Notes under the pieces: model-generated
Told to the model about the DNA's origin: nothing
Database searches by the model: none
What the model saw: only the letters and a program-made list of their open reading frames with translations
Position numbers and translations under genes: made by a program
Part shown: positions 285-21,278 of the stretch, in pieces
How the letters are laid out: each line of letters opens with the position of its first letter
Numbering within the stretch: position 1 is the stretch's first letter
Assembly: GCA_027486795.1 (NCBI GenBank)
Contig: JAIXOI010000014.1
Span: 1-35,609 of the forward strand
Reading direction: 5' to 3'
Length of the DNA: 35,609 nucleotides
Source of the DNA: Sphingobacteriales bacterium
GTDB taxonomy: Bacteria; Bacteroidota; Bacteroidia; Chitinophagales; CAIOSU01

Positions 285-1526
285 TTAATTGCTCTCCTTC
301 GGGTAGCATACATAATACTTAACAACCGGTGTAGATAGGTATTGGATGTTCAGTTGGTCGCTGGCTTTGGCTACATCTTTCAAAGTGCCATCTTTAAAAA
401 GGATGTTAATATTGCCCTTATCCATATTATAAGCACTATTGCTGGTGCTGCCTTGCAATACTAAATAATCTAACTCGTGATCGGAAACAGCAAACTGTTT
501 TTGAGCTTTCTCACGAAGCTCCATAACGTGCAAATCAGATATGGGCTCGTTAAACAATTCCACCCGGTAAAGCTTGCGCTCTACAAGGCCTTTGCATAAA
601 CGGCGAAGCACTACATCATCATGATAAACCCATTGCTTCACACTGGCCATAATATCGTTATCATCCATACGCAAGTATTGCTCAAGCGCATCGCTATATG
701 GCGAATCAAACTCTTCTCGTTGCACATCGGTATACAAAAAGTAGCGAAAGCTGGGTGTGGCAAACAAATCGGCTCCAGCCACTGCCAACTCTTTGGCACG
801 CAAAAGCACCTTCACCATCATTTGCTCAGCACACAACACCGTTTTGTGCAAATACACCTGCCAATACATCAACCTACGGGCAACCAAGAACTTCTCAACG
901 GAATAGATGCCTTTGGCCTCAATTACCAACTCGTCGTTCTTTACTTCCAGCATTTTAATAATGCGATCGAAACCGATGGAACCTTCCTGCACGCCAGTAT
1001 AAAAGCTATCGCGCACTAAGTAGTCCAGCCTATCCATATCCAATTGGCTACTGATGAGCTTTTGCAGAAACTGCTTATGATATTTGCCTTGGAAAATTTC
1101 AATAGCCAACGTTAGCTTACCTTTAAATTCGGTATTCAAAGAGTCCATTATTAACTCTGATAAGAACTCGTGTGAAATACCTGGAGCCAAACAGCGTTCT
1201 AATGCATGAGAGAAGGGCCCATGACCAATATCGTGCAAAAGAATACCAATACACACAGCCTCCTGCTCTTCTGCGGTAATGTCGTGCCCTTTAGCGCAAA
1301 GCTCGTCAAGTGCCAGCTGCGTGAGGTGCAAGGCGCCCAGTGCATGATGAAAACGGGTATGGTACGCCCCAGGGTAAACGTAATGGCTCATGCCCAATTG
1401 CTTGATGCGGCGCAAGCGCTGAAAGTAGCGATGCTCTATGAGGTCGTAAATGACTTCGTGGCGGATGGTAATAAATCCATACACGGGGTCGTTAAATATC
1501 TTTCGTTTATTGATGGGCGTTTGCAA
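285..1526 (-). CDS. HD-domain phosphohydrolase, SAMHD1/dGTPase-like
   Basis: A 413-residue protein of the HD superfamily, close in plan to bacterial dNTP triphosphohydrolases and SAMHD1. Visible motifs: HTRFHHALG at about residues 56-64, the HD pair in ILLHDIGHGPFSH (H98-D99), and the late metal-binding aspartate in QLDMDRLDYLVRD (D165). In this family these residues bind the active-site metal, and the enzymes split dNTPs into nucleoside and triphosphate or act on related phosphoesters. The substrate cannot be told from sequence. The start is TTG at 1524-1526: there is no ATG in frame before the conserved 'NKRKIFNDPVYGF' segment and an in-frame stop lies upstream. It is divergent from porX with 58 bases between, and from memory this pairing is seen in other Bacteroidota. 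Confidence 0.85.
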   Translation of the reverse strand: MQTPINKRKIFNDPVYGFITIRHEVIYDLIEHRYFQRLRRIKQLGMSHYVYPGAYHTRFHHALGALHLTQLALDELCAKGHDITAEEQEAVCIGILLHDIGHGPFSHALERCLAPGISHEFLSELIMDSLNTEFKGKLTLAIEIFQGKYHKQFLQKLISSQLDMDRLDYLVRDSFYTGVQEGSIGFDRIIKMLEVKNDELVIEAKGIYSVEKFLVARRLMYWQVYLHKTVLCAEQMMVKVLLRAKELAVAGADLFATPSFRYFLYTDVQREEFDSPYSDALEQYLRMDDNDIMASVKQWVYHDDVVLRRLCKGLVERKLYRVELFNEPISDLHVMELREKAQKQFAVSDHELDYLVLQGSTSNSAYNMDKGNINILFKDGTLKDVAKASDQLNIQYLSTPVVKYYVCYPKESN

Positions 1527-1584
1527 GTGTAGCGTCTGAAATACTATATTAACTTTAACTTAGCAACAAAATTAGCCAATCCTG

Positions 1585-3147
1585 ATGAACAATATAAACA
1601 TACTTTGGGCCGACGATGAGATTGACTTGTTGAAACCCCAAATTCTTTTCCTTGAAAGCAAAGGTTATAGCATAATTGCCGTAACCAATGGCCGCGATGC
1701 TATCGACAAATGCAAGACAGAACCCATTGATGTTGTTTTCTTGGATGAAAGTATGCCTGGTATAACTGGCCTTGAGACATTGGCTGAGATAAAAAAAATC
1801 AGTCCCGGCTTACCCATAGTAATGATTACTAAAAACGAGGAAGAGGATATAATGGAAGAGGCCATCGGTTCGCAAATAACCGATTACCTGATTAAACCGG
1901 TTAAGCCAAACCAAATATTACTTACCCTGAAGAAGATTATTGACAACAAACGCTTGGTAAGCGCTAAAACCAATAGCGATTACCAAAAGGAGTTCCAACA
2001 AATATTCTCTACCATTCAAGACCAATTGGATCATAAGCAGTGGATGGATTTGTACAAAAAACTCATCCACTGGGAGTTGGAGTTGGAGAAAAGCAGCGAC
2101 AATGGCATGAAGGAAGTATTGAACATGCAAAAGCACGAGGCCAACGTTGAGTTTAATAAATACATCATCAAACATTACATTGATTGGGTAAAAGGCAAAG
2201 ACAAGGATGCACCGATTATGTCGCACCAAATGATGGCAGAGAAAATAGTACCGGTTGTAAAGGCCGACCCAAAAACACCAACTATTGTAATATTAATAGA
2301 TAACCTGCGGCTAGACCAATGGCGCACAATACAGCCCATGATAAACGAGAGTTTCCGTATGGTAACTGACGACAGTTTTTATAGCATACTGCCTACTGCC
2401 ACCCAATACAGCCGCAATGCCATTTTTGCCGGAATGATGCCCATAGATATTGAAAAGCACTTTCCGAACGAATGGAAGAACGACGAAGATGATGGTGGAA
2501 AAAACCTATCGGAAAACGTTTACTTGAAGTCTTTTCTTAAGCGTACTTTCCACGAGCCAATCAAAAGCGACTACCTGAAAATAACCAACCATGCAGATGG
2601 TCGTAAGTTGGAAGACAATATATTGAACTACCTCAACAGCCAGCTAACAGTTATCGTGTACAACTTTGTAGATATGCTTTCGCATGCCCGCACCGAGATG
2701 GAGGTACTTAAGGAATTGGCTAGCGACGAAGCCGCTTACCGCTCGCTGACTTTATCTTGGTTTGAACACTCACCGTTGCACAATGCCCTAAAAAAGCTCG
2801 TGGGCAAAAAGGTAAACCTAATATTTACTACTGACCACGGCACCAAGCGAGTAAACACCCCAAGTAAATGTATTGCCGATAGGGCTACCACCACCAATAT
2901 CAGGTATAAAAGCGGCAAAAACCTCAACTTTGACCAACGTGATGTATTTGAAGTAAAAAACCCTTTGGATGCAGGCCTACCGCGTCAGCACGTAAGCTCC
3001 ACATTTATATTTGCCAGAGAAGATAAATTCTTTGTGTACCCGAACAATTACAACCACTTTGTGAGCTATTTCAGGGATACTTTTCAGCATGGCGGCATAT
3101 CTTTGGAGGAAGTTATTATCCCTTTTGCGGTTTATAGCAACAAATGA
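1585..3147 (+). CDS. porX: PorX, response regulator with PglZ phosphodiesterase domain (T9SS regulator)
   Basis: A 520-residue two-domain protein. Residues 1-120 form a CheY-like receiver with the acidic pair D10-D11, phospho-acceptor D54 (VFLDESMPG), T82 and K104. After a helical linker (about 125-225) comes a PglZ domain of the alkaline-phosphatase fold. Its likely metal and catalytic residues are D239 (ILIDNLR), T271 (LPTATQYSRN), D363 and H367 (VDMLSHA), D417-H418 (TTDHGT) and H502. This full set fits an active zinc-dependent phosphodiesterase, as known for PorX of Porphyromonas and Flavobacterium, where PorX works with kinase PorY and a sigma factor to control T9SS genes. It is 520 residues, the usual PorX length. 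The stop overlaps the tsaE start (ATGA), so the two are co-translated. No porY is in the window. Confidence 0.95.
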   Translation: MNNINILWADDEIDLLKPQILFLESKGYSIIAVTNGRDAIDKCKTEPIDVVFLDESMPGITGLETLAEIKKISPGLPIVMITKNEEEDIMEEAIGSQITDYLIKPVKPNQILLTLKKIIDNKRLVSAKTNSDYQKEFQQIFSTIQDQLDHKQWMDLYKKLIHWELELEKSSDNGMKEVLNMQKHEANVEFNKYIIKHYIDWVKGKDKDAPIMSHQMMAEKIVPVVKADPKTPTIVILIDNLRLDQWRTIQPMINESFRMVTDDSFYSILPTATQYSRNAIFAGMMPIDIEKHFPNEWKNDEDDGGKNLSENVYLKSFLKRTFHEPIKSDYLKITNHADGRKLEDNILNYLNSQLTVIVYNFVDMLSHARTEMEVLKELASDEAAYRSLTLSWFEHSPLHNALKKLVGKKVNLIFTTDHGTKRVNTPSKCIADRATTTNIRYKSGKNLNFDQRDVFEVKNPLDAGLPRQHVSSTFIFAREDKFFVYPNNYNHFVSYFRDTFQHGGISLEEVIIPFAVYSNK

Positions 3148-19946: not shown

Positions 19947-20006
19947 GGCAGCATGGATGCAACAATGGTTGGAAGGGTTTGTTCGTACCTAAAGTAGAAA
20001 CCACCC

Positions 20007-20053
20007 AAAACACAAAGCGGGCTCAAAACTTTTAACAGTTTCGAAACCCGCTT
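20007..20053 (-). terminator. Terminator of structured RNA copy 1
   Basis: On the minus strand AAGCGGG (20047-20053) pairs with CCCGCTT (20015-20021). Inside it TCGAAAC pairs with GTTTTGA, and TTTGTGTTTT follows. Copy 2 keeps both helices with different bases. Confidence 0.8.
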
Positions 20054-20352
20054 CCATTTCCTAAAGGCTAATGCCCGAAAATGTCAAGTTACTGTTGAGC
20101 AGCTTTGTCCTTTCTAATAAGCCTCGTGCCGAAGCACTTATCCTAAACTGGACGCTGACCCTCGCATGAAAGTTGGTTTTCGGTAAGCGTTGCTTCCTAA
20201 GAAGTGTTACCTTTAATTTATTGGTCGTCTTCTGAAGCCGAAGCTTTCCCAGAACCTTCCTCTCGGTCGGAACCCTTTGACTAAACCAACAATTCAAACA
20301 ACTTTCTGGAGTGCCTGGCTTTTGCAAGCCTGCTGTTTATCCCTCGCTTGAT
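20007..20352 (-). ncRNA. Putative structured non-coding RNA, copy 1 (unknown family)
   Basis: A transcript of about 346 nt is predicted between the promoter at 20358-20388 and the terminator at 20007-20053. Visible helices: GGCTT-GCAA-AAGCC with a GNRA tetraloop (20317-20330) near the 5' end; TTCTG...CAGAA enclosing AAGC-TTCG-GCTT (20230-20254); GGTAA...TTACC (20182-20211), whose partner in copy 2 is GGTAT...ATACC, a compensatory change; and ATAAG...CTTAT enclosing GTGC-TTCG-GCAC (20117-20141). An 88-codon frame crosses the region but is shifted and stopped in copy 2, so it is not counted as coding. I see no match to RNase P, tmRNA, SRP or 6S RNA signatures. Function is unknown; a trans-acting regulatory RNA is one option. 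Confidence 0.7.
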
Positions 20353-20357
20353 GTTAT

Positions 20358-20388
20358 CAAAATTATACTACCTGCCCTCAAATTCAAA
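20358..20388 (-). promoter_or_regulatory. Promoter of structured RNA copy 1
   Basis: On the minus strand TTTG (20385-20388), a 19-base spacer and TAATTTTG (20358-20365) form a complete Bacteroidota promoter. Copy 2 has the same elements with the same 19-base spacer. Confidence 0.78.
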
Positions 20389-20404
20389 ATAATTATCGTA
20401 ATAT

Positions 20405-20508
20405 TTATACACAAGATACAAACCCGTTTACGCACACATTAATCTGTTTCTGCACCTTTTTTGGCTGGTTATTAACATATTACGGGATTCGTTTTATGCT
20501 TATGCACA
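20405..20508. promoter_or_regulatory. Three DnaA-box-like sites upstream of RNA copy 1
   Basis: Reading the plus strand: TTATACACA (20405-20413), TTACGCACA (20428-20436) and TTATGCACA (20500-20508). They start 17, 40 and 112 bases beyond the -33 element at 20385-20388. The first and third match TTATNCACA in full; the second differs at one fixed position. Copy 2 has sites at 17, 40 and 111 bases. They could bind DnaA or a transcription factor with a similar site. Confidence 0.5.
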
Positions 20509-20667
20509 ATACCATCAAGATTAAGGTATGTTTTATCAATTACTATTTTTACCAAAAATTGAAAAAAACCTAGAAGGATTTTATTAATGTGTGAAGCAGA
20601 TAACAATCTCCCGGCTTTTTGCAATCAATATAGGAGCAGCAAAGCGATGTAAAAGTAAAACTCCCCT

Positions 20668-20714
20668 AAAACACGAAACGGGCCTCAAACCTTTGACAGT
20701 TTAAGAACCCGCTT
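20668..20714 (-). terminator. Terminator of structured RNA copy 2
   Basis: On the minus strand AAGCGGG (20708-20714) pairs with CCCGTTT (20676-20682, one wobble). Inside it CTTAAAC pairs with GTTTGAG, followed by CGTGTTTT. Compared with copy 1, several pairs changed on both sides. Confidence 0.78.
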
Positions 20715-21015
20715 CCATTTTCGTATGGCCTAAGCCGGAAAACGTCAAGTTACTGTTATTATGGCTTTGTCTTCTTCCTTGTTTCCAGCCGAAGCTTTCT
20801 TCTTGGTTTCCAACGCTGACCTCCTACTGAAATGTTCTTCTCGGTATTGTTTTTCCTCCTAGAAGGTCATACCTTTAATTGATTGATCGTCTTCTGAAGC
20901 CGAGGCTTTCCCAGAACCTCCCTTGCGGTTGGAACCCTTTGACTAAACCAACAATTCAAATAACTTTTCTAAGGTGTCTGGCTTTTGCAAGCCTGCCTTT
21001 TATCCCTCCCTTGAT
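20668..21015 (-). ncRNA. Putative structured non-coding RNA, copy 2 (unknown family)
   Basis: Paralogue of the RNA at 20007-20352, about 348 nt by the same reasoning. The 5' GNRA hairpin is identical (20980-20993). The TTCTG...CAGAA hairpin is kept with loop CTCG in place of TTCG (20892-20916). The GGTAT...ATACC helix (20843-20873) covaries with copy 1. An AGC-TTCG-GCT hairpin (20787-20796) takes the place of copy 1's second TTCG hairpin. Overall length is equal to within a few bases although many positions differ, which suggests selection on structure. All minus-strand frames are broken by stops when followed through both copies. Copy 2 lies upstream of copy 1 in transcription and ends before copy 1's promoter, so they are independent units. 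Confidence 0.7.
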
Positions 21016-21020
21016 GATAT

Positions 21021-21051
21021 CAAAGTTAGCATACCACACCGCATTTCCAAA
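21021..21051 (-). promoter_or_regulatory. Promoter of structured RNA copy 2
   Basis: On the minus strand TTTG (21048-21051), a 19-base spacer and TAACTTTG (21021-21028). Same architecture as copy 1; the spacer sequence differs while its length is kept. Confidence 0.8.
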
Positions 21052-21067
21052 ATATTTTCATTAATAC

Positions 21068-21170
21068 TTATACACTCTAAATGAACAGGGTTATACACCA
21101 ATATAGAGGCCTTATTAACCATTATACTTGGTTGTAAACAATTTACGCATCTCCTTCAAGGTTATGCACA
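21068..21170. promoter_or_regulatory. Three DnaA-box-like sites upstream of RNA copy 2
   Basis: TTATACACT (21068-21076), TTATACACC (21091-21099) and TTATGCACA (21162-21170), starting 17, 40 and 111 bases beyond the -33 element at 21048-21051. The third is a full match to TTATNCACA; the first two miss only the last base. Confidence 0.5.
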
Positions 21171-21278
21171 AAGTTATCGGTATCAGTCACTTTTTGAGTA
21201 GGTCCATTTTTCGATAAAAAATACCAAAACCGCATAATTGGGTTGTTACCTGCGCGTTTTATACTCAATAAAAAGCGC

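Follow-up and report, generated by a model that had tools for sequence, protein, structure and literature searches.

Two probable tandem RNA genes in the window

Does a pair of direct repeats in a Bacteroidota genome encode a structured RNA, and does that RNA belong to a known family? The question was raised by a stretch of 35,609 nucleotides (referred to as the window; contig JAIXOI010000014.1 of assembly GCA_027486795.1), which is contig 36 of the 3.9 Mb draft genome of a Sphingobacteriales bacterium (G000). An initial annotation of the window had proposed that a gene for a structured non-coding RNA is present twice there, each copy with its own promoter and terminator. Comparison with relatives and paired base changes supported this proposal. 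We consider it very probable (roughly 0.9) that the two copies are free-standing genes and that their RNAs, large, structured, and non-coding, are members of a Bacteroidota family absent from Rfam; this assignment is drawn from sequence comparison. The descriptive features of a large structured non-coding RNA were found here, namely covarying helices, the lack of a coding frame, and a promoter and a terminator recognised by sequence and conservation.

The two direct copies, each of about 450 bp, lie in tandem and are offset by 661-663 bp. Inside 19991-20435 and 20652-21098 they share direct repeats of 106, 34, 116, and 133 nt, and the stretches between these repeats were less alike. When copy 1 was used as a BLASTN query, its own genome was matched at just these two places. 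Over the predicted RNA, the identity between the copies was approximately 75% (75-76%). The repeat search and the sequence agreed with the layout given by the initial annotation, in which two direct copies about 662 bases apart each hold TTTG-N19-TAAYTTTG, an RNA body, and a GC-rich hairpin with a T-rich end on the minus strand. The inferred RNA lengths are about 346 and 348 nt. The RNA ends of both copies were inferred from the promoter and terminator positions. The promoter is presumably of the main promoter type of Bacteroidota. A generic terminator scan reported neither copy's terminator hairpin; both were read from sequence and conservation. Each copy was found to fold somewhat better than dinucleotide shuffles, with z scores of -2.7 and -2.4 and one of 100 shuffles as good in each case.

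A conserved core closes a variable interior

The members share a common series of parts, which runs from the promoter through the 5' block CCAAGYGAGRGAUAAAAGGC, a variable hairpin-rich interior, and the 3' block AAUAACNGUAGCUUGG to a hairpin and the terminator. Within this series, two helices, P1 (CCAAG:CUUGG) and P2 (GGC:GCC), hold the RNA ends together, and a nearly invariant internal loop lies between them (5' YGAGRGAUAAAA, 3' AAUAACNGYAG). The detailed order is thus P1, the 5' loop strand, P2, the branched interior, the 3' loop strand, P1, a hairpin often with a UACG-type loop, and the terminator. The 3' motif AWAACNNNRGYTTG was present in 56 of the 113 matches, starting 151-585 nt past the start of the promoter TTTG; it was seen by eye in several further matches and stood farther out in L126.

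The RNA length across members ranges from about 250 to more than 700 nt, and the interior can be aligned just within lineages. The cUUCGg tetraloop is enriched in the interiors, being present in 21 of 44 non-redundant RNAs compared with 2.5 expected. In three Algoriphagus-type members (L128, L130, and L203), the module GG-N1-3-ACCNCAGAA occurs threefold and similarly spaced, at approximately 110, 330, and 432 nt past the TTTG of the promoter, and part of the length variation results from the repetition of this module.

The pairing was examined in an alignment of eight members. In the proposed helices, which comprise P1, P2, the 3' hairpin, and the terminator, 97.5% of the cells were paired, and 10 of 40 pairs showed changes on both sides. 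Compared with 500 shuffles, zero or one was as good on four measures and 146 were as good on the fifth, the number of further pair types. When the partners were slid by one column, the pairing fell to 54-56%. The two copies of the window themselves differ at one P2 pair, where copy 1 has A-U and copy 2 has G-C.

More distant members showed the same pairing. RNAalifold joined the CAAG block to the CUUG block in every one of four lineage alignments, the letters of CAAG and CUUG themselves having been partly selected by the search patterns. The pair flanking this block, which the searches left unfixed, was paired in 48 of 56 rows (C-G in 17, U-A in 17, U-G in 12, A-U in 1, and G-U in 1). Of 51 distinct distant rows, 47, 49, and 50 were paired at the three P2 positions, which the search patterns had likewise left unfixed; the second position was A-U in nine rows, and the third was U-A in five rows or G-C in one. 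The summed P2 pairing was 146, compared with a mean of 136.7 and a maximum of 143 in 5000 shuffles, although these shuffle counts are not probabilities because the rows are related by descent. Moreover, the models found members in which a helix is kept with other letters, namely CAAAC/GUUUG (L120), CAAA/UUUG (L136), and CGAAU/AUUCG (G006) for P1, and GAG/CUC for P2 in one G1130 copy. The positions of the parts are given in Table 1.

Table 1. Positions of the RNA genes, their parts and associated features (window coordinates unless a locus is named)
Feature	Position	Strand	Support
RNA gene, copy 1, ~346 nt	20007..20352	-	98% orthologue in G005, 84% in G002
Promoter of copy 1, TTTG-N19-TAATTTTG	20358..20388	-	Sequence (TTTG at 20388-20385, TAATTTTG at 20365-20358); same arrangement in relatives
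P1 5' strand UCAAG, copy 1	20347..20351	-	Covariation analyses
P1 3' strand CUUGA, copy 1	20084..20088	-	Covariation analyses
3' hairpin after P1, copy 1	20055..20083	-	Helices 4 and 5: 100% and 87.5% of cells paired
Terminator hairpin GCGGG...CCCGC with T-rich tail, copy 1	20007..20054	-	Helix 6: 97.7% of cells paired
RNA gene, copy 2, ~348 nt	20668..21015	-	98% orthologue in G005, 94% in G002
Promoter of copy 2, TTTG-N19-TAACTTTG	21021..21051	-	Sequence (TTTG at 21051-21048, TAACTTTG at 21028-21021); same arrangement in relatives
P1 5' strand UCAAG, copy 2	21010..21014	-	Covariation analyses
P1 3' strand CUUGA, copy 2	20745..20749	-	Covariation analyses
DnaA-box-like TTATACACA, upstream of copy 1	20405..20413	+	Sites in same region of relatives
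DnaA-box-like TTATGCACA, upstream of copy 1, 95 bp further out	20500..20508	+	Sites in relatives likewise
TTATACACT, upstream of copy 2, one mismatch to TTATNCACA	21068..21076	+	Sequence
DnaA-box-like TTATGCACA, upstream of copy 2	21162..21170	+	Sites in relatives likewise
PhoH-PIN protein	L140 610-1980; L126 15-1358; L125 1746-3053; L205 4498-5838	orientations differ	

Distribution of the family

BLASTN with copy 1 matched four of the seven genomes of the family, all of one genus, with two tandem copies in G000, G002, and G005 and one copy in G003; the same search gave none in G004. The identity to the orthologues in G005 was 0.98 for copy 1 and 0.98 for copy 2, and to those in G002 it was 0.81 and 0.94, respectively. 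The copy-to-copy identity within a genome was 0.72-0.76 (0.75 in G000). Since orthologues are closer to each other than the copies within one genome are, and G002 and G005 retain the pair, the duplication predates these species.

Stepwise searches recovered relatives in the genus, the family, the order, and the class. A sequence-only model of eight members was searched over 396 genomes of the order. At E<=1e-10 it matched the four genus genomes, G011, G016, and two copies in G006; full-length matches were those in G006, which is of the own family, and in the order members G011 and G016. The match in G001 was weak (E 0.06) and was accepted on reading, since the promoter, the 5' core, P1, the 3' hairpin, and the terminator followed in order, in a longer RNA. 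A second model, made of the promoter and the first ~60 nt (the 5' model), added a third G006 copy, which was complete on reading. Acceptance at the order level was 8 of 44 genomes at E<=1 for the eight-member model and 8 of 301 at E<=1 for the 5' model, a minority of the other weak rows having been read. Over 395 genomes of the class, the 5' model matched 22 at E<=5e-4, the own genome included. When 22 other class loci were read, the 5' core was seen in 21, 19 of which had the TTTG -7 element (L132 and L135 were without it).

Several weak matches were rejected on reading, namely those in G091, G170, G134, G261, G327, and G121, and L134 among the class loci. The match in G073 and eleven further order matches were rejected as the 3' half was absent from the stretch examined. 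Another weak order-level match, L109 in G184 (approximately 1500-1850, minus strand), combines a good promoter and a TCAAATGAGGGGAAAA start with a 3' end that resembles a tRNA (GGTTCGAGCCC...); ARAGORN reported nothing at L109, which might be another RNA gene.

The pattern TTTG-N5-8-CAAGYGAGRGATAAA was also searched in a named genome collection, giving at least 120 matches in at least 115 stretches. At least 93 of these matches passed a promoter test, and 27 of those listed failed it; three of the failures (L148, L160, and L248) are probably real and were left out of the box count described below. All but four of the promoter-bearing matches listed were labelled Bacteroidota. Among the listed stretches, 20 carried another label, of which 16 failed the promoter test and four passed it, the latter being L152 and L162 (Chlorobiota), L213 (Alphaproteobacteria), and L196 (Anaerolineae). 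To judge by its RNA, which is near-identical to that of the Bacteroidales locus L234, L213 is probably mis-binned. L196 and L166 passed the promoter test and were later judged to be chance matches; they are kept in the 93 and the 113, and together with L145 and L214 they were dropped as chance from the analyses of neighbours, box density, and interiors.

An 81-row model was then searched across a phylum sample of 296 genomes and across the 118 genomes of the family of G488. Since the models see the 5' end alone and the filters were strict, the genome counts are lower bounds. In the phylum sample seven genomes were matched, with support for G000, G488, G519, and G655; in G112, G566, and G996 the 3' motif was not seen, and these were not relied on. 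In the family of G488, 38 genomes were matched, and the 3' motif was also found in 17 of the 28 newly examined loci; in the other 11 the pattern gave no 3' motif within 1.5 kb. The record labels spread the RNA family over several orders, and the record titles include the cultivated genera Algoriphagus, Aquiflexum, Cecembia, and Mariniradius.

Several genomes hold more than one copy. G1130, a single contig of 5.04 Mb, carries three complete copies at 553, 561, and 4867 kb, two of them ~0.7 Mb from the third; G006 has three copies on two contigs, and Mariniradius has two about 250 kb apart. Tandem or multiple copies, ~0.8-8 kb apart, were also observed in Cyclobacteriaceae-type genomes (L183, L193, L216, G1101, G1083, G1091, and G1130), and the duplication in the window is therefore not unique.

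Comparison with known RNA families

The whole window was compared with the 4227 families of Rfam 15 at the gathering score. No model reached this score at the locus, and the two hits obtained were tRNA genes elsewhere in the window; at E<=10 the locus had just three hits, all far under the cut-off. The initial annotation had been unable to match the RNA to RNase P, tmRNA, SRP, or 6S RNA and had regarded it as the strongest candidate for something undescribed in the window. The covariance models left it unmatched to any Rfam family, and within the open-licence literature, a scope outside which most subscription journals fall, no description of such an RNA was found. Judged against Rfam and this literature, the RNA would be a new class within a wider group that is already known, the large structured RNAs of bacteria whose function is unclear.

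RNase P RNA (RF00010) was found elsewhere in six of seven genomes with 228-262 bits, and none was found in G005. Similarly, tmRNA (RF00023) was found elsewhere, over the cut-off and full-length, in six of seven genomes, the match in G016 being below the cut-off; ARAGORN reported no tmRNA in the window. Both RNAs are similar in length to the present RNA, but their models do not match it. The general 6S model RF00013 matched neither the locus nor any of ten genomes (G000 and nine others). It was silent in a Bacteroides control too, so that its silence says little, and it seems to be blind in Bacteroidota. The 6S-Flavo model (RF01685) also left the locus unmatched. 6S RNA has the shape of one long hairpin with a central bubble. 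Whereas a free-standing, growth-related RNA such as 6S or 6S-Flavo, the latter likewise from Bacteroidota, suggests a possible role for the present RNA too, here a branched interior is closed by the P1/P2 stem, whose internal loop is invariant.

A table in PMC2864571 gives 6S-Flavo, the Bacteroidota form of 6S and an Rfam family. Excerpts of two reports on Bacteroides thetaiotaomicron and Flavobacterium psychrophilum (PMC7366714, PMC9723704) list 6S, RNase P, and tmRNA, and these excerpts mention no RNA like the present family. The ornate large RNAs of bacteria (PMC12286853), among them OLE, ROOL, and GOLLD, resemble the present RNA in being large, free-standing, and rich in hairpins, and in having a function that is unclear. 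OLE, however, is described from Gram-positive bacteria, whereas the present RNA is from Bacteroidota; the present RNA further differs from all three in that their Rfam models do not match it, a DnaA-box-like cluster lies upstream of it, and its minimal form is ~250 nt.

DnaA-box-like sites upstream of the promoters

The region upstream of each window promoter is conserved as well, and no TTATNCACA site of the window lies outside these two regions; the three are at 20405, 20500, and 21162. Three such sites in 35.6 kb are not unusual as a count, since 27 of 100 shuffles had as many, but their placement is. We call these sites DnaA-box-like for their resemblance to what we take to be the DnaA box.

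The same placement was observed in the relatives, in counts that include related strains more than once. Among the matches listed, the 200 bp before the promoter TTTG of 92-93 loci held 147 TGTKNATAA sites (102 forward and 45 reverse), whereas the remaining 100-bp bins of these loci, out to 1.5 kb, held 0-4 in all per bin. The density of exact TTATCCACA was 1.36 per kb upstream (26 in 19.1 kb) and 0.064 per kb in the flanks (13 in 204.6 kb), a 21-fold difference. With up to one mismatch, the densities were 4.55 and 0.43 per kb, which is 11-fold denser upstream, and such sites were present in 67 of 108 loci. The highest upstream density reached by any of 27 scrambled boxes was 0.89 per kb (0.32 in the flanks). 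Among every second of the 93 listed loci, the commonest upstream element was a TTATTAACAATTGTTAATAAC-like palindrome in Bacteroidales records and TGTGGATAAC in those of Cyclobacteriaceae.

Alternative explanations

Since copy 1 contains an 88-codon ORF, the locus might encode a small protein or the leader of an mRNA. Copy 1 stays open for 91 codons at most, and this stretch is cut to 48 codons in the 98%-identical G005 orthologue; copy 2 does not exceed 40 codons, and the longest open stretch in another member is 79 (G003). Moreover, none of the 11 members examined has a frame on the RNA strand with fewer than two stops. The earlier statement that no frame is open through both copies thus held, no conserved frame appeared among these members, and a protein-coding role is hardly credible. 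The size, the tetraloop-rich hairpins, and the variable length of the RNA recall the ornate large RNAs, and RF00013 detected no separate 6S RNA in the ten genomes. The RNA could then be a very divergent member of a known family (6S, raiA/ModT, OLE, ROOL, GOLLD, RNase P, or tmRNA) that the Rfam models miss. However, the RNAs at 22 relatives' loci (6 and 16) were also unmatched in Rfam at E<=1, the sole hit over the cut-off being a tRNA gene in L066; RNase P and tmRNA each have their place elsewhere in most of the genomes; and 6S-Flavo is in Rfam and yet does not match. We leave this reading a slender chance.

The conserved stretch may also act mainly as DNA, as a replication origin (oriC) or a DnaA-titrating site, with the RNA as a by-product or as a priming or opening transcript. 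The upstream TGTKNATAA cluster and the enrichment of TTATCCACA over the flanks and over scrambled boxes speak for it, and a cluster of DnaA boxes, by sequence resemblance, is what an origin should have. Nevertheless, selection on DNA does not explain why the RNA covaries in itself, and the expected single occurrence per chromosome was not observed. An origin is unlikely because single-contig G1130 carries three full copies, and G006 and Mariniradius also have several; a titrating site would be compatible with such numbers. Neither the GC skew nor the gene orientation switched lastingly at the locus in 400 of the 732 kb of the G003 contig, a test that is weak in this phylum, and the GC skew of G777 was too flat everywhere to tell. 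In G777 a longer box palindrome stands at another place where the RNA is absent. A longer run of TTGTTAATAA palindromes between genes without the RNA was observed at L255 1490-1540 (CP070687.1, ~2146.8 kb), and it may be the true origin of replication there. We regard a mainly DNA-level role as improbable. Quite improbable, too, is that the RNA travels with a mobile element or phage, as its patchy spread and its tandem and multiple copies might suggest. The neighbours are ordinary chromosomal genes that are kept within lineages (biotin carboxylase, PhoH-PIN, and steroid dehydrogenase groups), viral contigs gave one match (L316), which was without the 3' half, phage records gave none by blastn with copy 1, and within the genus the copies follow the genomes.

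Several observations weigh against the reading as a family of structured RNA genes tied to DnaA. The P1 and P2 tested in the eight-member alignment were set by the analyst from the wider comparison, and single-sequence folds and RNAalifold on that alignment formed neither helix and preferred other partners. The fourth P2 position showed no covariation, being paired in 33 of 51 rows (shuffle mean 32.6), and the 5' side of the first is invariant. The interiors of the genus and of G011/G016 had an identity of 0.34-0.46 and were too divergent to be aligned for a common fold. The spread is patchy, with 7/296 genomes of the phylum sample (three without the 3' motif), 38/118 of the G488 family, and 8/396 accepted in the own order. 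The exact classical TTATCCACA was present in just 23 of 108 loci, and the Bacteroidales boxes are TTGTTAATAA palindromes, not classical ones. Finally, no protein-coding neighbour was constant across the loci.

Gene neighbourhood

In G000, the RNA genes are flanked by a histone-deacetylase-domain protein on one side and a carboxypeptidase-regulatory-like-domain protein on the other, and the neighbours in G003 are different. A protein with a PhoH ATPase and an N-terminal PIN domain adjoins the RNA gene at eight loci of at least three lineages, in differing orientations (the domains were checked in four). This adjacency may reflect chance, old synteny, or a functional partner, and is a lead only.

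Proposed role of the RNA

The explanation that we favour combines an RNA family with a protein-binding core and an output tied to DnaA, and as a whole we find it likely. In this explanation, the internal loop between P1 and P2 would be the working core and most likely the seat of a protein, and the interior would be a lineage-specific scaffold of hairpins that can shorten, lengthen, or repeat. Because no neighbour gene is constant, a dedicated partner encoded next to the RNA is argued against; its gene would lie elsewhere in the genome, or a housekeeping protein would serve as the partner. The housekeeping-type promoter stands behind a DnaA-box-like cluster, and its output would probably follow the DnaA level and hence growth or replication. 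The RNA would then act in trans as part of a ribonucleoprotein whose dose follows growth. The 6S, CsrB, and OLE RNAs of other bacteria offer a comparison for such a role. Taken separately, the tie of the RNA output to DnaA is a tentative proposal, and the action of the RNA as a protein scaffold is slightly more tentative. A further-reaching version, in which the RNA class forms a ribonucleoprotein or is itself catalytic around the invariant loop, its gene is wired to DnaA, and the RNA, being abundant, reports or feeds back on the initiation of replication, is speculative and rather unlikely.

Large structured RNA classes of unclear function are rarely found, and several of them proved to be unusual particles. 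We know of no other large RNA with such a possible link to DnaA, and the upstream box cluster makes this link directly testable. The RNA biology of Bacteroidota is little studied; with a minimal form of ~250 nt and carriers in cultivation, the present RNA would be easy to study.

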